From: Gemmatimonadaceae bacterium
GTDB lineage: Bacteria > Gemmatimonadota > Gemmatimonadetes > Gemmatimonadales > Gemmatimonadaceae
Assembly (NCBI GenBank): GCA_025927495.1
Contig: JAICLH010000008.1
Span: 1 to 37,467, forward strand
Length of the DNA stretch: 37,467 bases
Reading direction: 5' to 3'
Shown: positions 9,571 through 21,448 of the stretch, one piece after another
How positions within the stretch are numbered: position 1 is the first letter of the stretch
How the letters are laid out: the number at the start of each line of letters is the position of its first letter
Notes under the pieces: model-generated
The model's database searches: none
Told to the model about the DNA's origin: nothing
Seen by the model: only the letters and a program-made list of their open reading frames with translations
Program-made: the position numbers and the translations under genes

Positions 9571-11617
9571 ATGAACCGATTGGCGCGCGAGACGAGTCCG
9601 TATCTGCGGCAGCATGCCGAGAATCCGGTCGACTGGTATCCGTGGGGAGCGGAAGCGCTTGGTCGCGCACGGAGTGAAGGCCGGCCGATTCTCCTGAGCA
9701 TCGGATACGCCGCGTGCCACTGGTGTCACGTGATGGCGCACGAGTCGTTCGAGGATCCGGAGACGGCGGCACTCATGAACGAGTTGTTCGTGAACATCAA
9801 GGTGGATCGCGAGGAGCGTCCCGATCTGGACGCGATCTACATGAGTGCCGTGCAAGCGATGACCGGGCACGGCGGCTGGCCGATGACGGTGTTCCTGACA
9901 CCGGATGGTGTGCCGTTCTACGGCGGCACGTATTATCCGCCCGACGACAGACAGGGGATGCCGTCGTTTCGTCGCGTGCTGTCATCGGTGGCGACAGCAT
10001 TTCGGGAGCGGCGCGGCGATGTCGAGGCGGCGGCCGGTCAGGTGCGGACGATGTACGCGCGGATGGCGGGGGCGCAGGGTGCGAGCGGCGCGCCGACAGT
10101 GGCGCTGCTGGCGAACGCGGCGCGGGGTGCAGCGCGGCGATTCGATGAGCGGTACGGCGGGTTCGAGGGTGCGCCCAAGTTTCCGCACGCGATGGCGCTC
10201 GAGTTCGCGCTGGTGGCCTGGCGGCGCGGGCTGCTGCCTAACGGCATGATCGTGGCGCGGGACTCGTTTCTGGCGATGAGCCGCGGCGGCATTCACGATC
10301 AGATCGGCGGCGGGTTCCACCGGTACAGCGTGGACGCGCGGTGGCTGGTGCCGCACTTCGAGAAGATGCTGTACGACAATGCCCTGCTCTGCCGGTTAGG
10401 CGTGCATTTGTTTCAGGTGACGCGCGACCCGGAGATCCGGGAGGTGGTGGAGGATCTCATCGCCTGGGTGGGCGCGGAGATGACGGCCCCAGGCGGCGGC
10501 TTCTACGCCTCGTTGGATGCCGACAGCGAGGGCGAGGAAGGCCGCTACTACGTCTGGAGCGCCGCCGAGCTCGAGTCGTTGTTAGGCACAGACGCCGGCC
10601 CGGCGGCGGCGCACTGGGGCGTCACGCGCGCCGGGAACTTCGAGGGACGCAACATTCTGCACGTGGCGGCGGATGCCGATGCCACCCTCGCGCGCGTGGG
10701 CGGCAGCCTCACGCGCGAGGAGCTGCATGGCCTCGTGCGCCGCGCCCGCGCGGGACGAAAAGATTCTCGCGTCATGGAACGGGCTCATGCTGCGCGCGCT
10801 TGCCGAAGCTGCCCGCACACTCGAGCACGATGGGGCGCGCGCACTCGCGCTGCGCAGCGGAACGTTCCTCCTCCGTGAGCTCGTGCACGATGGGCGCGCG
10901 ATACGTGTCTGGAACGCGTCGCCCGGCGCGCCGCACGCGCCGGGCTTCCTCGATGACCAAGCCGCAGTCGCGTTGGCGGCGATCGCGATGTACGAGCTCA
11001 CGTTCGATGAATCGTGGGTGGCGCAAGCCCGGCGCATGACCGAGTCGATGCTGCGATGGTTTTGGGACGACCACACCGGGACGTTCTTCGACACCGCACA
11101 CGATCACGAAGCGCTTATCACCCGCCCCCGCGAGACGACCGACAACGCGACGCCCTCCGGGACCTCGCTCGCCGTGGAACTGCTTCTACGGTTAGGCGAC
11201 CTCCTCGACATACCGTCGTGGCGTCAGCGCGCGGTGGACGTTGTGTCGAGCATCGGCCATGCGGTCGAGCGCTATCCGCTTGCGTTCGGCCACTTGCTCA
11301 CGGCTGCCGATGTCGCCGTGTACGGACCGGTCGAGGTCGCGTTGTTAGGCGATCCGTCGAGCATCGGATTCCTGGCGTTGCAGCGCGTCACGTCCGAGCA
11401 GTACGTGCCCGGCTTGGTGTTGGCCGGCGGCCGAGCCGATGGCGACATTGCGCTCCTACGCGACCGGAAGCCGATCAACGACGCGGCGACTGCGTTCGTC
11501 TGCCGGCACTACGCCTGCGAGGCGCCCACTACGCTGCCCGAGACGTTGAGCGCGCAACTGGAGCTCGCTGCGGATGCCCCACCCCCCGATTCCGTTGGGC
11601 ATACGCAGAGCGGCTGA
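9571..11617 (+). pseudogene. Thioredoxin-domain/YyaL (DUF255, SPATA20-like) protein with apparent internal frameshift near 10745
   Basis: Frame 1 (9571-~10755): [29 protein letters not shown]...[26 protein letters not shown]; continuation in another frame to 11617: [24 protein letters not shown].... Confidence 0.85.
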
Positions 11618-12457: not shown

Positions 12458-13504
12458 TCATTTCGCCTGACTGGGACCGGGACCATGCGGGCGCGCGGAC
12501 TTGAACAGTCGGAACAAGTAAGTGATCGACGGGAAGAGCACGATGGCGCCGAGCGCGAGCGCGATAAGAAAGAGTCCCAGTGTTCGTGACGGAGCAGCGG
12601 AGTTGCCGATCGTGAATGTCGGCGGAATCAGATAGGGATATTGCGCAGCGGCCCATCCCCACAGGATGAACGCGACCTGCGCGGCGGCGGCGACGCGGGC
12701 CAGACGCCACTTTCTGATCCAGAGCGCTACGATGGCGACAATTGCGGCGATGCCCGTCAACACATGCAGCGGCGGCGCCCACGCAGATTCAATGAGGCCG
12801 GCGCTGACGCGCGGCGCGTGCGATCGCGCGAGTAACAGCGCGAGAAACGCGGTCACGAATACGGCGATCGCCGCGGCAAGCGCGCGTCGACGAAAATCTT
12901 CTCGCAGCTCCGGGTCGTCCGCTTCGACCGTGAGGTAGGTGGCGGCGAGAAAAGCGAACAGGCACAACGCGAGCGCGCCGACCGCAATGGTAAATAGAGA
13001 CAGCCACGGCGACACGTATAACGACGCGAACGAGTCGCCCGCGCCGCCGTGAGCGAGCCGATCGAGCATGGCACCGACGCTTCCGGACGCGATGGCGCCG
13101 ATGCACACGCCGAGCAGCACCGGTGTGAGCAGGCTCGCGATGGCGAATACACGGCCCCACCGCCGCTGCGGCGCGTCATCGCTGCTGCCATAGCTCCGGA
13201 ACGCGAACGCGGAGCCGCGCAGCACGATGCCGATCAACATGAGCGTGAGCGGAATGTGCAGCGTGATCGCGAGGCCGGCGTACACTGCGGGAAAGCACGT
13301 GAAGAGCAGGACGACGACGAGGATCAGCCACACGTGGTTGGCTTCCCAGATTGGTCCAATGGCTTCCGCGATCAGCGCGCGTTGTTCGCTGCGTCGGGGA
13401 CCGGTGGCGAGGAGGTCCCATACGCCGCCGCCGAAATCGGCGCCGCCGAGCAGCACGTATGCGGTCAGAGCGACCAACGCGACGAACGCGATCGCGGTTG
13501 CCAT
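12458..13504 (-). CDS. cydB: Cytochrome d ubiquinol oxidase subunit II
   Basis: YVLLGGADFGGGVWDLLATGPRRSEQRALIAEAIGPIWEANHVWLILVVVLLF. Confidence 0.95.
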   Translation of the reverse strand: MATAIAFVALVALTAYVLLGGADFGGGVWDLLATGPRRSEQRALIAEAIGPIWEANHVWLILVVVLLFTCFPAVYAGLAITLHIPLTLMLIGIVLRGSAFAFRSYGSSDDAPQRRWGRVFAIASLLTPVLLGVCIGAIASGSVGAMLDRLAHGGAGDSFASLYVSPWLSLFTIAVGALALCLFAFLAATYLTVEADDPELREDFRRRALAAAIAVFVTAFLALLLARSHAPRVSAGLIESAWAPPLHVLTGIAAIVAIVALWIRKWRLARVAAAAQVAFILWGWAAAQYPYLIPPTFTIGNSAAPSRTLGLFLIALALGAIVLFPSITYLFRLFKSARPHGPGPSQAK

Positions 13505-13515
13505 GCGCGGTTCCG

Positions 13516-14850
13516 TTAGGCGGCGACGGGCGCCATCGCCCCCTCGCCTTCACGCGTGATCGGGCTCCGGATCACGAGGTCGTAGAGGAGCCACACGACC
13601 ACCACGCCGAGGAAGCAATACAGCGCGCTGATCACGAGAAAGGGTACGATGAGACCGGGCATCGGCGTCACCGAATCCGCGGTCCGCATCACGCCGTAGA
13701 TCACCCACGGTTGTCGTCCGACCTCGGTAACGGTCCAGCCGGCTTCGATGCACAGGAGCCCCATTGGCGTTGCGGCGGCCACGGCGCGCATGAGCCACCG
13801 GTTGGCCGCGAGATCGCGTCGCCGCAAAGTTTCGATGACCACCCACACGCCGAGCAGCGCGAGATAGGTGCCAAGTGCCACCATTATCTGGAAGGCGACG
13901 TGAACGATTGGAACGGGCGGCCAGTCCCGCCGCGGCACGGCATCGAGTCCGCGGACTAACGCGTGCGGGTCATGGAACGCGAGCAGTGACAGTCCGTTAG
14001 GAATCTCGATCGCCCAACGCGTTCGTTGGGCGGAGACGTCAGGAATTCCGCCGATGCGCAGCGGCGCGCCGGACTGGGTGCGAAATTGACCTTCCATCGC
14101 CGCGAGCTTCGGCGGCTGCCAGCGTGCGACGTATCGCGCGCTGATGTCGCCCGTGATGGGCTGCACGATCGCGGCCGGCACCCCGACAATGAGCGCCACC
14201 ACGAGCGCGCGCCGATGAAACGCATTGCGGCGGTCGCGCAGCAACATGAAACCGTGGATACCAGCGACCGCGAACCCCGTGGCTGCATACGCGGCCAGCA
14301 GCATGTGCAGGACTTCGGGAAATGCGGCAGGCGTCAGCATTGCGGCGATGGGATCGACGTCAACCGGCGCGCCGTTCTGCAGTCGGAATCCCACGGGCGA
14401 ATTCATCCACGCGTTGGCGATCACGACGAACAACGCGGACGCGGCCCCGCTCACCGCAACGAGGGCGCCGGCGGCGATGTGCGCCCGCGGCGAGATGCGC
14501 TGCCAACCATACAGATACACGCCGAGAAAGATGGCCTCGGCAAAAAACGCGAAGCCCTCGAGGGAAAACGGCATGCCGATGATGGCGCCCGCGAATCGCA
14601 TGAAGCCCGGCCACAGCAAGCCGAGCTCGAAACTGAGCACGGTTCCCGAGACCGCGCCGACCGCGAAGAGAATCGCCGTGCCTTTCGCCCAACGCCGGGC
14701 AAGCTCGAGGTACATCGCGTCGCCGGTGCGCCGCCACCGCGCTTCCGCGATGATCATGAGCACCGGCATCGCGATGCCGACGACAGCGAACAGGATGTGA
14801 AAGCCGAGCGACACCGCCATCTGTGACCTGGCGGCGAGGACGTCACCCAT
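13516..14850 (-). CDS. cydA: Cytochrome ubiquinol oxidase subunit I
   Basis: SQMAVSLGFHILFAVVGIAMPVLM, SFELGLLWPGFM, EGFAFFAEAIFLGVYLYGW, VEVGRQPWVIYGVMRTADSVTP-like region. Confidence 0.96.
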   Translation of the reverse strand: MGDVLAARSQMAVSLGFHILFAVVGIAMPVLMIIAEARWRRTGDAMYLELARRWAKGTAILFAVGAVSGTVLSFELGLLWPGFMRFAGAIIGMPFSLEGFAFFAEAIFLGVYLYGWQRISPRAHIAAGALVAVSGAASALFVVIANAWMNSPVGFRLQNGAPVDVDPIAAMLTPAAFPEVLHMLLAAYAATGFAVAGIHGFMLLRDRRNAFHRRALVVALIVGVPAAIVQPITGDISARYVARWQPPKLAAMEGQFRTQSGAPLRIGGIPDVSAQRTRWAIEIPNGLSLLAFHDPHALVRGLDAVPRRDWPPVPIVHVAFQIMVALGTYLALLGVWVVIETLRRRDLAANRWLMRAVAAATPMGLLCIEAGWTVTEVGRQPWVIYGVMRTADSVTPMPGLIVPFLVISALYCFLGVVVVWLLYDLVIRSPITREGEGAMAPVAA

Positions 14851-15896
14851 CAGACCGACTCGAACTCGAGCTCCAGATCGAGGGCTGGCGCGCGTTGTGT
14901 GAGGGCGTCGACCGCAATGCGATCCACTCCGGCCTGGGCGAAGCTCCGCACGGCGTCGAGCCGCACATCACCGGTCACCTGCGTGTACACGCGCGACGAT
15001 GCAATCTCCACACATTCGCGCACGTGCGACGGTGTCATGCCATCGAGGAGCACGGCATCCACGCCGGCGGCCACGGCGCTACGCACTTCGGCCGGCGAGC
15101 GGCACGCGATCTCGATGCGCGTGTGGTCCGACGCGAGGTCGCGCGCCCGCCGCACGACCATGGCCACATCGCGATTCATCGCGGTGAGATGGCTGTCGCG
15201 AATGTGCACGACGTCCAGCCCATCGCGCTTCATGCCTGACGCACCACCGGCTCGGGCGGCGTAGTGCTCGAGCTCGCGCAGGCCCGGCGTGGTCTTCCAC
15301 GTGTCGACGATGCGGGCCGAGGTCCCGCGCACGGCCTCGACATAGGACGCGGTGAGCGTCGCGATGCCGGACAGGTGGCGGAGGAAGTTGAGCGCGACGC
15401 GCTCGGCCGATAGAATCGCATGCGACAGCGCGGTGATGCGCACGACCGGCGCGCCATCGGTGACGCGGCCGCCGTCGTCGACGTCCACGCGGAGTGCGGC
15501 ATTGGAATCGAAGAGCCGGAACGCCGCGACGGCTAACGGAACGCCCGCGAGGATGCCGGATTGCCGCGCGACGATCGTCGCGTGCGCGCGCCGTGCGGAC
15601 AAGACACTCGCCGCCGTCGCGATGTCGTGATAGGCGCCGTCTTCGAGCAACGCCGCGCGAAGACAGGCCTCGAGTTGTCGATCAGATAGCGGGAACCCGA
15701 GGTGATCGTCTTCGGCCACCGCCGCGCCGGTCTGGGGCGTCACCGCACGCGAGGTCCGTCGATCTCGCGAGGAGCGTGGAATCTGGGATTCGAGGCCGCG
15801 GTCGCTGTTACGACGCGGTTCGATGGAGCGCCGGCGGTCGCTGTGGAACCGTCCTTCCTCCGGCTCAAACATCCCGGGTGTGGTCATGTGCCCCAC
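14850..15896 (-). CDS. NadC-like (quinolinate phosphoribosyltransferase fold) protein; N-terminal start uncertain
   Basis: EDGAYHDIATAASV, RIVDTWKTTPGLRELEHYAARAGG, HIRDSHL; TGATG overlap with cydA. Confidence 0.8.
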   Translation of the reverse strand: MGHMTTPGMFEPEEGRFHSDRRRSIEPRRNSDRGLESQIPRSSRDRRTSRAVTPQTGAAVAEDDHLGFPLSDRQLEACLRAALLEDGAYHDIATAASVLSARRAHATIVARQSGILAGVPLAVAAFRLFDSNAALRVDVDDGGRVTDGAPVVRITALSHAILSAERVALNFLRHLSGIATLTASYVEAVRGTSARIVDTWKTTPGLRELEHYAARAGGASGMKRDGLDVVHIRDSHLTAMNRDVAMVVRRARDLASDHTRIEIACRSPAEVRSAVAAGVDAVLLDGMTPSHVRECVEIASSRVYTQVTGDVRLDAVRSFAQAGVDRIAVDALTQRAPALDLELEFESV

Positions 15897-17661: not shown

Positions 17662-19341
17662 TTACTGAATCACCACCGCCTCCGCGCGGGACCAGCGGCC
17701 TTCCGCCCACCGCGCGATGAGCGTGATTGCGAGCACGAGCGCGATCAGCACCACGCTGAAGGCCGCCGCCGTGCCGAATGCGAAGTTGCGCAGCTGCGAA
17801 AGGATCTCCATTGAGATCGGGCGATTCGCCTGCGTAAAGAGGACGATGCTGGCTACGAATTCGCCGACCGCGGCGATGGCGGCGAGCATCGCGCCCGCAA
17901 CGAGGCCCGGCCGCGACGCGGGCAGCACAACCCGCCGCATGGTCAGCCACCAACTCGCGCCTAACCCTCGGGCCGCATCCTCGAGCGACGGGTCCATCTG
18001 TCGCAGCGATCCCTCGGTCGCGCTTGAGACCAACGGCACGCCGCGCACGAAGTACGCGAGCGGCAGAATCCAGAACGTTCCGACGAGCAGCACGCGCGCG
18101 CCAGCGAGCGACGTGCGATCGAACGTCGAGGCGAGGCCGAGGCCGATCGCCGTGCCCGGAATTGCCCACGGCAGCGCGACGAGCGTCGCCAAGAGCCATC
18201 GCATGCGGAATCGTCGTAGCACCAGCAGATACGCAGCCAGCAGGCACACGACGATGTCGAGCACCGTCGCGATCGCCGTCATCGAGACGCTGTTCCAGAT
18301 CGGAACCCAGAGGTCGCTGTTGGTCGCGAGCCGCCGGAAATTGTCGAATGTGTATTCCGGCGGCAGCACCTGCGTCGTCCATGTGCCGTCGCGAGCGAAC
18401 GCCACGAGGACGACCATCGCGTGCGGTAGCACGAGGATCACCACCAATATCACGCCGGCGATCGGCGCCAGAGCGCGCGCCGAGCGCGAATGGAGGCGCG
18501 TGCGCACGACCGAGCCTTTCGAGGACACGGCATACGTGCGACGTCGCTCGAACCAGCGCAGCAGAATGAGCGCCGCGATCGCGCCGACGGCGAGCACCGT
18601 CGTCTCGACATACGCGAGGCCCATGGCGCCGTTGAGCTTGGAGGCGACGATCTGCGTGGACAGCACACGCAGTCCGCCGCCGAAGATGTAAGGCGCCGAA
18701 AAGCTGCCGAGCGCGCTCATGAACACGAGCAGCATCGATCCGGCGATCGCCGGGGTCAGCAGCGGCAGCGTGACCCGGCGCAGGCGGAACGACCGTGACG
18801 CGCCTAACCCGGCGGCGGCTTCGTCGAGCGACGTGTCCAACCGCTCGAGACCCGCCGAGACGAACAGAAAGACGTACACGTACATCGTGTATGCATGAAC
18901 GAAGATGATCGCCCCGGCGCCGTTGAGCGTCCACGGCGCGTGGTCGAGTCCCAGCAGTGCCTGCACGCCTCGCGTCACGACGCCGCTCTCGCCATAGAGA
19001 AAGAGGAACGCGACGACGCCGACGAGTGGCGGGAGCGCCGCCGGGAGCGTGGCCACAGCGCTCAAGATGCGACGGCCGCGAAACTCGACGCGCGTGAGGA
19101 GAAAGGCCAGCGGCAAGCCGACGGCGACCGAGGCGATGACGGAACCCACCGAAATAATCAGGGTGGTGCGCAACGCCTCGATATCGGTCGGACTCGATGC
19201 AAACTGGCGCCACGACCGCAGACCATGCTCGAAGCTTCCGACGATGATGGACGCGTTCGGATAGACGACCGTCCACAGGAGCACGAGCAACACCGGGAGG
19301 GCGAACAGCCACGTGCCCTTCTCATCCGCGCGCTGGCTCAC
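17662..19341 (-). CDS. Fused ABC transporter permease (Fe3+/thiamine FbpB/ThiP type)
   Basis: Two permease halves with EAA-like loops (LDEAAAGLGASRSFRLRRVTLPLL; LEDAARGLGASWWLTMRRVVLPAS). Confidence 0.9.
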   Translation of the reverse strand: MSQRADEKGTWLFALPVLLVLLWTVVYPNASIIVGSFEHGLRSWRQFASSPTDIEALRTTLIISVGSVIASVAVGLPLAFLLTRVEFRGRRILSAVATLPAALPPLVGVVAFLFLYGESGVVTRGVQALLGLDHAPWTLNGAGAIIFVHAYTMYVYVFLFVSAGLERLDTSLDEAAAGLGASRSFRLRRVTLPLLTPAIAGSMLLVFMSALGSFSAPYIFGGGLRVLSTQIVASKLNGAMGLAYVETTVLAVGAIAALILLRWFERRRTYAVSSKGSVVRTRLHSRSARALAPIAGVILVVILVLPHAMVVLVAFARDGTWTTQVLPPEYTFDNFRRLATNSDLWVPIWNSVSMTAIATVLDIVVCLLAAYLLVLRRFRMRWLLATLVALPWAIPGTAIGLGLASTFDRTSLAGARVLLVGTFWILPLAYFVRGVPLVSSATEGSLRQMDPSLEDAARGLGASWWLTMRRVVLPASRPGLVAGAMLAAIAAVGEFVASIVLFTQANRPISMEILSQLRNFAFGTAAAFSVVLIALVLAITLIARWAEGRWSRAEAVVIQ

Positions 19342-20399
19342 GCGACCACCGCCACAGGCTCGCGCGTGACGCGGACCCAGACGGTATCGCCGGGCTGCAC
19401 GTCGCGCACGGTGCTGTGGAGCTCGAGATCGACGTCGCCCGCCACGCCCACGCGATAGGCCAGCAACGCGCCCGCGAAGCGCCGCTCCTGCACGACACCC
19501 GGCCACGCGTCCGGCCCGTTAGGCGGAGAGAAACCGAGTGCATCGGGACGCAACACGGCCGTCGCCGGGCCGCGCGACGGCAGGTCAGGTGCGGGAGCCG
19601 CGCGCAGCGTCCGGAGATCGCCGCCTAACTGAATGGCGATGCGGTCCCCGTCCAGTGTGCCCGGCACGAGCGTCGACCGGCCGATGAACGCCGCCACGTC
19701 GCGATTCGCCGGACGATCGTACAGCGCCTCGGCGGTCCCCACTTGCAACAGGCGGCCGGCGGCCAGCAGCGCCACGCGATCGGCCACGGCGAAAGCGTCC
19801 TCCTGATCGTGCGTCACGAACAGCGCCGTCACACCGAGGCGGCGGAGCGTCGACCGGAGCTCCTCGCGGGTGCTTCGGCGCAACGTCGGATCGAGATTGG
19901 ACAACGGCTCGTCGAGCAACAGCACCGGCGGCTCGATGATTAACGCGCGAGCGAGCGCGACGCGCTGCTGCTCGCCGCCCGACAGCGATTGGATGGCCCT
20001 GCCTTCGGCATCGGCGAGACCGACGCCGGCGAGCGCCTCGGCCGCGCGCGACATCCGCTCGCTGCGCGCGACACCGCGCGCCTCGAGGCCGAACGCCACG
20101 TTCTGCCCAACGGTCAGGTGCGGAAACAGCGCGTAGTGCTGAAACACCATGCCGAACTGACGGCGTTGCGGCGGCAAGCTGGTGATGTCGCGACCGTCGA
20201 GCACCACCGCGCCGCCATCGGGAATCTCGTACCCCGCGACCATGCGCAGCGTCGTGGTTTTGCCGGAGCCGCTGGCGCCGATGAGCGCAACGAGCTCGCC
20301 CGCGGCAATCTCGAGTGACACGGCGTCCACCGCTGCACGTGCCTCGCTGAATCGGCGAGTCAGCCGATCGAGCACGAGATGCGGCGTCGCGCCGCTCAC
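19338..20399 (-). CDS. ABC transporter ATP-binding protein
   Basis: Walker A GASGSGKTTT, LSGGEQQRVALARAL, LLLDEPLSNLD; GTGA overlaps with neighbours. Confidence 0.95.
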   Translation of the reverse strand: MSGATPHLVLDRLTRRFSEARAAVDAVSLEIAAGELVALIGASGSGKTTTLRMVAGYEIPDGGAVVLDGRDITSLPPQRRQFGMVFQHYALFPHLTVGQNVAFGLEARGVARSERMSRAAEALAGVGLADAEGRAIQSLSGGEQQRVALARALIIEPPVLLLDEPLSNLDPTLRRSTREELRSTLRRLGVTALFVTHDQEDAFAVADRVALLAAGRLLQVGTAEALYDRPANRDVAAFIGRSTLVPGTLDGDRIAIQLGGDLRTLRAAPAPDLPSRGPATAVLRPDALGFSPPNGPDAWPGVVQERRFAGALLAYRVGVAGDVDLELHSTVRDVQPGDTVWVRVTREPVAVVA

Positions 20400-21448
20400 C
20401 GCGAGCTGTTCCGGATGTGCGAGTCCCAGTACTGCATCCACTCGTCGAGATGCTGCTCCAGCATCGCGCGATCGAGGGGCATGGGTTTGATCTGGTCGCG
20501 CGCCGCACGAATCCAAGGAGGCAGCGAGTCTGCCGGAATATCGGTACGCACCGGAATGCGATAAAAGCGCTCGGCAGCGTCGAGCAGCGCGCGCTGGGAC
20601 GTGACGAACTCGTAGTATTGGCGCGCGATCGCCGGATGCTTTGCGCCTTTCACCAACGCGATCGCGTCGACCAACAACGGCGTCCCGCTGGCGGGTATCG
20701 TGTACTTCACCGGGATGTGGTATCGATCGCGCAGCATCGCCAGGTCCGGCATGTCGAACAGGGTGATCAGTCCTTCCTGCCGGCCGAGCTTCTGGTACAG
20801 AATCGTGGGGTTGAGCGTGTACTCCTTGGTCTGCGCGTCGAGCCGCTTGAGCCAGGCGTAGCCCTGGTTAGGCGTGCCGGTGTCGCGAATGCTGCGCAGG
20901 ATGATCGCGCCGAAGATCGCGCGCATGCTGCCGGACGCGATCGGATCGCGGATCAGCACCTTGCCCTTCCATTTCGGATCCAGCACGTCGTCCCAATCTT
21001 TGGGCGCGGCCGAATCGCTCACCGCCTGGCTGTTGTAGCCGATCACCTCGGGGGTGAGGTACGTGCCGTACCAGAGGTCGTTGGGATCGTGGCTGTCAGC
21101 GGGCACTGCGTTAGCCCACGTCGGATGATAGGGCGCGAGCAGTCCTTCGCGGCCGGCGCGCTCGAAAATTTCCTCGGGTGCGCCGAACCAGATGTCGGCT
21201 TGCGGATTCGCTTTCTCGCTGCGCAGCCGGTCGATGATGTCCTGCGATCCCATATCCACCGACTGCACGTCGATGTCGGGATGCGCCGCCTCGAATTCCT
21301 TCTCGTAAAACGACAGCAGGTCATTCCCGTGCGGCGAGTACACGGTGAGCACCGTGCGATGCGGACCCCGCTGGCACGCCGCGACGACGAGCGACGCCAG
21401 CACCGCGCTGACGAGCTGCGCAACGCGCCGCCGCCGGATGGGCATCAC
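20396..21448 (-). CDS. Extracellular solute-binding lipoprotein (Fe3+-type)
   Basis: Lipobox VVAAC; VLTVYSPHGNDLLSFYEKEFEAAHPDIDVQSVDMGS...ADIWFGAPEEIFE. Confidence 0.88.
   Translation of the reverse strand: MMPIRRRRVAQLVSAVLASLVVAACQRGPHRTVLTVYSPHGNDLLSFYEKEFEAAHPDIDVQSVDMGSQDIIDRLRSEKANPQADIWFGAPEEIFERAGREGLLAPYHPTWANAVPADSHDPNDLWYGTYLTPEVIGYNSQAVSDSAAPKDWDDVLDPKWKGKVLIRDPIASGSMRAIFGAIILRSIRDTGTPNQGYAWLKRLDAQTKEYTLNPTILYQKLGRQEGLITLFDMPDLAMLRDRYHIPVKYTIPASGTPLLVDAIALVKGAKHPAIARQYYEFVTSQRALLDAAERFYRIPVRTDIPADSLPPWIRAARDQIKPMPLDRAMLEQHLDEWMQYWDSHIRNSSR

Follow-up and report, generated by a model that had tools for sequence, protein, structure and literature searches.

What does a relative of an NAD-synthesis gene do directly in front of the genes for a cytochrome bd oxidase, when the residues that bind its substrate have been replaced? 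The question is raised by the window, the whole stretch of 37,467 nucleotides analysed here (contig JAICLH010000008.1 of a Gemmatimonadaceae bacterium), in which the original prediction had described such a NadC-like gene. The open reading frame at 14850-15896 (reverse strand) encodes DTWKTTPGLRELEHYAARAGGASGMKRDGLDVVHIRDSHL, letter for letter as the original prediction quoted it; we refer to the gene as nadC'. Its start is most likely ATG 15887 and not GTG 15896, since a GGAGG (overlapping GTG 15896) lies 7-8 nt upstream of this ATG, and the start codons of three orthologues, also ATG, fall at the same place in the alignment; with this probable start, nadC' occupies 14850-15887 (reverse strand) and encodes 345 amino acids. 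Residue numbers of the product (P0001) nevertheless refer to the 348 amino acids counted from GTG 15896. The nadC' stop codon (TGA, 14852-14850) shares bases with the cydA start codon (ATG, 14850-14848), which bears out the reported TGATG overlap (14848-14852, reverse strand); the same overlap is present in genome G099. The oxidase genes follow on the reverse strand: cydA, encoding subunit I, at 13516-14850 (PF01654, 481.6 bits), and cydB, encoding subunit II, at 12458-13504 (PF02322, 247 bits).

By domains and score the nadC' product is a member of the NadC family (QAPRTase, a type II PRTase): it matches PF01729 and PF02749, and scores 233.7 bits against TIGR00078, above the equivalog cut-off of 198.4. 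An AlphaFold2 model has the complete QAPRTase fold with a core pLDDT of about 95 (residues 5-55 are below 50), and the solved structure closest to it is 1x1o (TM by target 0.94), with other QAPRTases next. Like ModD, nadC' is a NadC-derived paralogue encoded outside the NAD operon, but ModD belongs to molybdate operons and nadC' adjoins cydAB. We rejected a ModD identity because the score against TIGR01334 is 70.6 bits (cut-off 178.85); the canonical NadC of the same genome scores 87.8. We found no molybdate transport genes linked to nadC' in the window; beside it lie cydAB and the genes of an MFS transporter and of a 2-aminoethylphosphonate/sulfate-like ABC transporter that falls below the modB and modC cut-offs. 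Nor is the product a nicotinate phosphoribosyltransferase (PRK08662, 18.7 vs 243 bits), and the profile scan matched it to no membrane or heme-protein family.

To describe the active site we use M. tuberculosis QAPRTase numbering, in which the chain number of 1qpn is the paper number minus 1; mutagenesis primers place Arg105, Arg139, Arg162, and Lys172 of that enzyme in AER-TMLN, DTR-KTL, VNHR, and LIK-DNH, respectively (PMC4065032). In nadC' (all coordinates on the reverse strand), DTRK is replaced by DTWK at 15294-15305 (R139>W, residue W200; K140 is kept as K201), NHR by GMK at 15228-15236 (N160>G, H161>M, R162>K; residues 221-223), and KDNH by RDSH at 15189-15200 (K172>R, N174>S, with H175 kept; residues 233-236). 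The ungapped alignment behind the original prediction (R139>W, NHR at 160-162 to GMK, K172>R) was correct, but its account of the losses was incomplete, having overlooked E201>A (residue 264, 15105-15107), N223>G (residue 286), G250>D (residue 310), and G270>D (residue 330, 14907-14909). A further change, H274>Q (residue 334), is harmless, Gln being the residue of the porcine enzyme at this position. Retained are R105 (R166), K140 (K201), H175 (H236), D222 (D285), and G249.

These changes fall on residues of known function. No activity was detectable in M. tuberculosis QAPRTase carrying R105A, R139A, R162A, K172A, or H175A, and Arg105 is supplied to the site by the other subunit (PMC4065032); in the porcine enzyme with bound NAMN, contacts to the ribose come from Glu201 and Asp222, and those to the phosphate from Gly249, Gly250, and Gly270 (PMC3633916). 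The quinolinate site of nadC' reads W, K, R, H, and R at positions 139, 162, 172, 175, and 105 (the last from the partner subunit), with R139 lost outright; at the PRPP/ribose site the contact Glu201 is Ala and Asp222 is kept. The loss of E201 and of the phosphate-contact G270, added to the quinolinate-residue losses, therefore means that the damage extends to the quinolinate half and the PRPP half of the site alike. Neither error nor chance is the cause: among 57 canonical NadCs of the family, R139 and K172 never vary and the conservation of H161 is 98%, yet four independent genomes all have W200 and R233. From these residues we conclude that the nadC' product very probably lacks QAPRTase activity.

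The housekeeping NadC of this genome is not nadC'. A second QRPTase match, C63, scores 193.9 bits (136.2 for nadC'), has DTRK, NHR, and KDNH intact, and is preceded on the same strand by nadA and nadB; a third match, C2, is weak (24 bits). Because a complete canonical nadB-nadA-nadC operon lies elsewhere in the genome, nadC' is a paralogue, as the original prediction had supposed in placing it outside housekeeping NAD synthesis; the second canonical nadC that it proposed to look for is there, together with nadA and nadB, and nadC' is not the only NadC of a prototroph. In one member of the same genus, G098, the canonical NadC (L070) has VSHR where other genus members have VNHR. From NadC, nadC' differs in the substitutions listed above, in being a paralogue of an intact NadC, and in a predicted disordered tail of 55 residues.

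Close relatives of nadC' are confined to the same genus among the 179 family and 164 order genomes searched. They are found in G100 (86% identity), G099 (86%), G097 (83%), and G096 (53%), in every case directly upstream of cydA. A search of 395 phylum genomes with a degenerate DNA pattern for DTWK returned just three genus members and one chance frame in G236. Apparent second NadCs in G026, G039, and G087 were rejected, being pieces at contig ends, a split gene, or a duplicate piece of contig that also has nadA and nadB. In the G096 copy the site is destroyed in another way, with CDGPN for DTRK (R139>P, K140>N), STS for NHR, and RENH for KDNH. The common ancestor of the five paralogues had probably already lost activity, to judge from the alignment, since K172, E201, N223, and G270 are altered in all five.

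Selection has treated the parts of the protein differently. Over the whole gene, dN/dS is 0.10-0.16 between the four close paralogues and 0.33-0.44 against G096 (0.06-0.10 for CydA in the same four genomes); for the core it is 0.06-0.08, compared with 0.09-0.17 for the true NadC in the same genome pairs. Six of 17 ligand-site positions vary among the four paralogues, and none of 17 among the four true NadCs, whereas outside the ligand site 41 of 266 positions vary in the paralogues and 59 of 266 in the true NadCs (the numbers in this pocket-versus-body comparison are small, with p values of 0.02-0.06). Constraint is gone from the pocket of nadC' and retained on its body. Conserved-residue losses common to both branches are concentrated in the C-lobe (15/58) and nearly absent from the N-lobe (1/28, p 0.016), which contains Arg105. 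The Arg-rich N-terminal tail (15723-15887, reverse strand; residues 1-55, predicted disordered) is weakly constrained: dN/dS is mostly 0.3-0.5 over the first 59 residues of the product. The tail includes a stretch, RRTSRAVTP, that is common to the divergent G096 copy (L010, 761-925) and absent from canonical NadC; it is possibly a short binding motif.

The gene therefore has three marks expected of a pseudoenzyme: lost catalytic residues, an intact paralogue, and a scaffold under purifying selection. The explanation we prefer, and hold to be reasonably likely, is that nadC' encodes a catalytically dead but conserved NadC pseudoenzyme, acting non-catalytically through its surface and most plausibly with NadC. 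Some of the residues speak against this: K140, R105, H175, and D222 remain, and in this branch of the paralogues R162>K and K172>R are conservative changes, which would leave room for some ligand binding. The same residues bear on the strongest competing reading, that nadC' still encodes an enzyme, namely a phosphoribosyltransferase whose substrate is a different aromatic acid (perhaps a monocarboxylated one) and whose pocket was reshaped by R139>W and H161>M/V. The strong purifying selection, the fixation of W200, K201, R233, H236, D285, D330, and R166 in four genomes, and the basic residues still present at positions 162 and 172 would all suit such an enzyme. However, its PRPP contacts are broken (Glu201 is Ala, and Gly270 is Asp), the pocket varies among close orthologues, and the G096 orthologue at the same locus has a wholly different pocket. 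Of the two outcomes that the original prediction had allowed, lost activity is thus the likely one, since R139A, R162A, and K172A each inactivate the M. tuberculosis enzyme (PMC4065032) and the PRPP-site Glu is gone; a changed substrate, which we consider unlikely, is the weaker candidate because even close orthologues differ at positions of the former pocket.

The position of nadC' next to cydA has an ordinary explanation in the gene order of the family. In at least 12 genomes from three other genera (for example, G149, G139, G137, G109, and G036), a canonical nadC has the same orientation as cydA and ends within ~70 bp of it, and in genera g3, g19, and g9 a canonical nadC lies 0.5-2.7 kb upstream of cydA. 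G109 and G149 have nadB-nadA-nadC-cydA-cydB in one run; loci with nadBAC leading into cydAB are L107, L030, L112, L104/L121, and L096. A gene for a putative BMP-family lipoprotein (BMP as read from sequence) diverges from nadBAC-cydAB in G109, from nadC'-cydAB in G097 of the window genus, and from cydAB alone, without nadC', in G098 of the same genus and in genus g5; in the window and in G100, an MFS gene stands at the outer end, where others have the BMP gene. In our reading of this series (BMP-nadBAC-cydAB, BMP-nadC'-cydAB, BMP-cydAB), nadB and nadA were lost from the operon first and nadC' later, in some lines. The linkage that the original prediction had noticed is accounted for by the nadBAC-cydAB order in Gemmatimonadaceae, an order that ties de novo NAD synthesis to the bd oxidase; the literature searched held nothing relevant on this order, on nadC-cydA linkage, or on NadC pseudoenzymes.

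The phylogeny is compatible with this history. The five paralogues form one clade (100/99), on long branches, placed with the rest of the family, and a branch with support of 100/99 separates this clade from the nadBAC NadCs of the window genus and g5. Two old lineages would account for this tree: NadCs of a nadBAC type in g1/g5, and a family-type NadC of which the cyd-linked copies are a remnant. When a within-genus duplication is forced, the likelihood is 25.6 lnL units worse (AU p 0.058); the two-lineage history is thus favoured but not proven by the sequences, and a within-genus duplication, not firmly rejected, counts against our preferred explanation.

If nadC' is a leftover, it could be a functionless remnant of nadBAC-cydAB that is being lost, its frame kept open merely by translational coupling to cydA. 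The gene order in related genera, the absence of nadC' from G098 and g5, the long branch to the paralogues, and the dN/dS of 0.33-0.47 against G096 are all what such decay would leave. But coupling preserves an open frame and not residues, and cydA manages without nadC' in G098; pure decay or coupling is disfavoured by the core of nadC', where constraint is tighter than in the true NadC that these genomes also encode, and we regard this reading as somewhat less likely than a changed substrate.

The gene order also bears on the role tied to the bd oxidase operon that the original prediction had suggested, read here as that of an accessory or assembly factor for cytochrome bd. The gene is co-oriented with cydAB and directly adjoins it in all five carrier genomes, with the TGATG overlap read in two of them (the window and G099). 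This coupling does not count as evidence for an oxidase role, since in other genera a canonical nadC occupies the same place, and G098 and g5 have the BMP gene and cydAB without nadC'; the bd oxidase genes persist without it, as G098 shows. As the product also matches no membrane or heme-protein family and its fold is a plain QAPRTase fold, we consider the oxidase factor improbable. A second, weakly active QAPRTase isozyme is the least credible reading: the score above the TIGR00078 cut-off and the retained K140, R105, H175, and D222 agree with it, but the M. tuberculosis enzyme has no detectable activity once R139 alone is replaced (PMC4065032), and nadC' has lost E201 too.

We return to the conserved pseudoenzyme. 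The operon-remnant history that we infer for it is as follows. An ancestral nadB-nadA-nadC run would have led straight into cydAB; in the window genus, NAD synthesis would have come to be supplied by a nadBAC operon at another place, the nadB and nadA on the cydAB side would have disappeared, and the leftover nadC copy would have lost its quinolinate- and PRPP-contact residues, its product keeping the fold and still being selected as a protein. That the product has some non-catalytic role seems likely to us. The most plausible form of this role, although as yet only a tentative proposal, is a hetero-oligomer with the housekeeping NadC, since Arg105 from a partner subunit completes QAPRTase sites and nadC' keeps both Arg105 and its N-lobe; the product could complete the sites of NadC or tune them, in the manner of HisZ with HisG. 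Any such partnership would be dispensable, because nadBAC is intact in G098, where nadC' is absent.

HisZ, an inactive HisRS paralogue that activates the phosphoribosyltransferase HisG, serves here as an analogy: it too is a dead paralogue, retained because it regulates an enzyme that uses PRPP, but its fold is unrelated, and the partnership demonstrated for HisZ is a proposal for nadC'. There are precedents for dead or inactive paralogues associated with enzymes of the PRPP type: HisZ is described as the regulator of HisGS (PMC9734150), and one of the two APRT isoforms of T. brucei as inactive (PMC8836349). It is conceivable, though rather doubtful, that nadC' is a regulatory pseudo-subunit of NadC that is made together with the cytochrome bd oxidase, so that NAD synthesis would be adjusted to respiration at low oxygen; the literature searched describes no bacterial control layer of this HisZ-like kind over de novo NAD synthesis.

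With the cyd linkage explained, what remains of interest is that one genus has conserved the scaffold of a probably dead NAD enzyme: a clean natural case in which selection no longer guards the catalytic site of a core enzyme of NAD synthesis but holds its scaffold all the more tightly. The gene is also an annotation trap: the product passes the NCBI NadC equivalog cut-off, so a genome with nadC' alone would be called a quinolinate-pathway NAD producer, and databases would probably mislabel the product as a working enzyme.

Two other loci of the window deserve mention. An ABC transporter set at 17662-21448 (reverse strand), comprising a substrate-binding protein, an ATPase, and a fused double permease, resembles 2-aminoethylphosphonate/sulfate-type transporters, with all scores below the curated cut-offs. 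At 9571-11617 (forward strand), a DUF255/YyaL-like thioredoxin-domain gene is split across overlapping frames (9571-10878 and 10673-11617), which, read from the sequence, is a frameshift or assembly error; the corresponding gene in G097 has a longer open frame (L005, 6280-8058).
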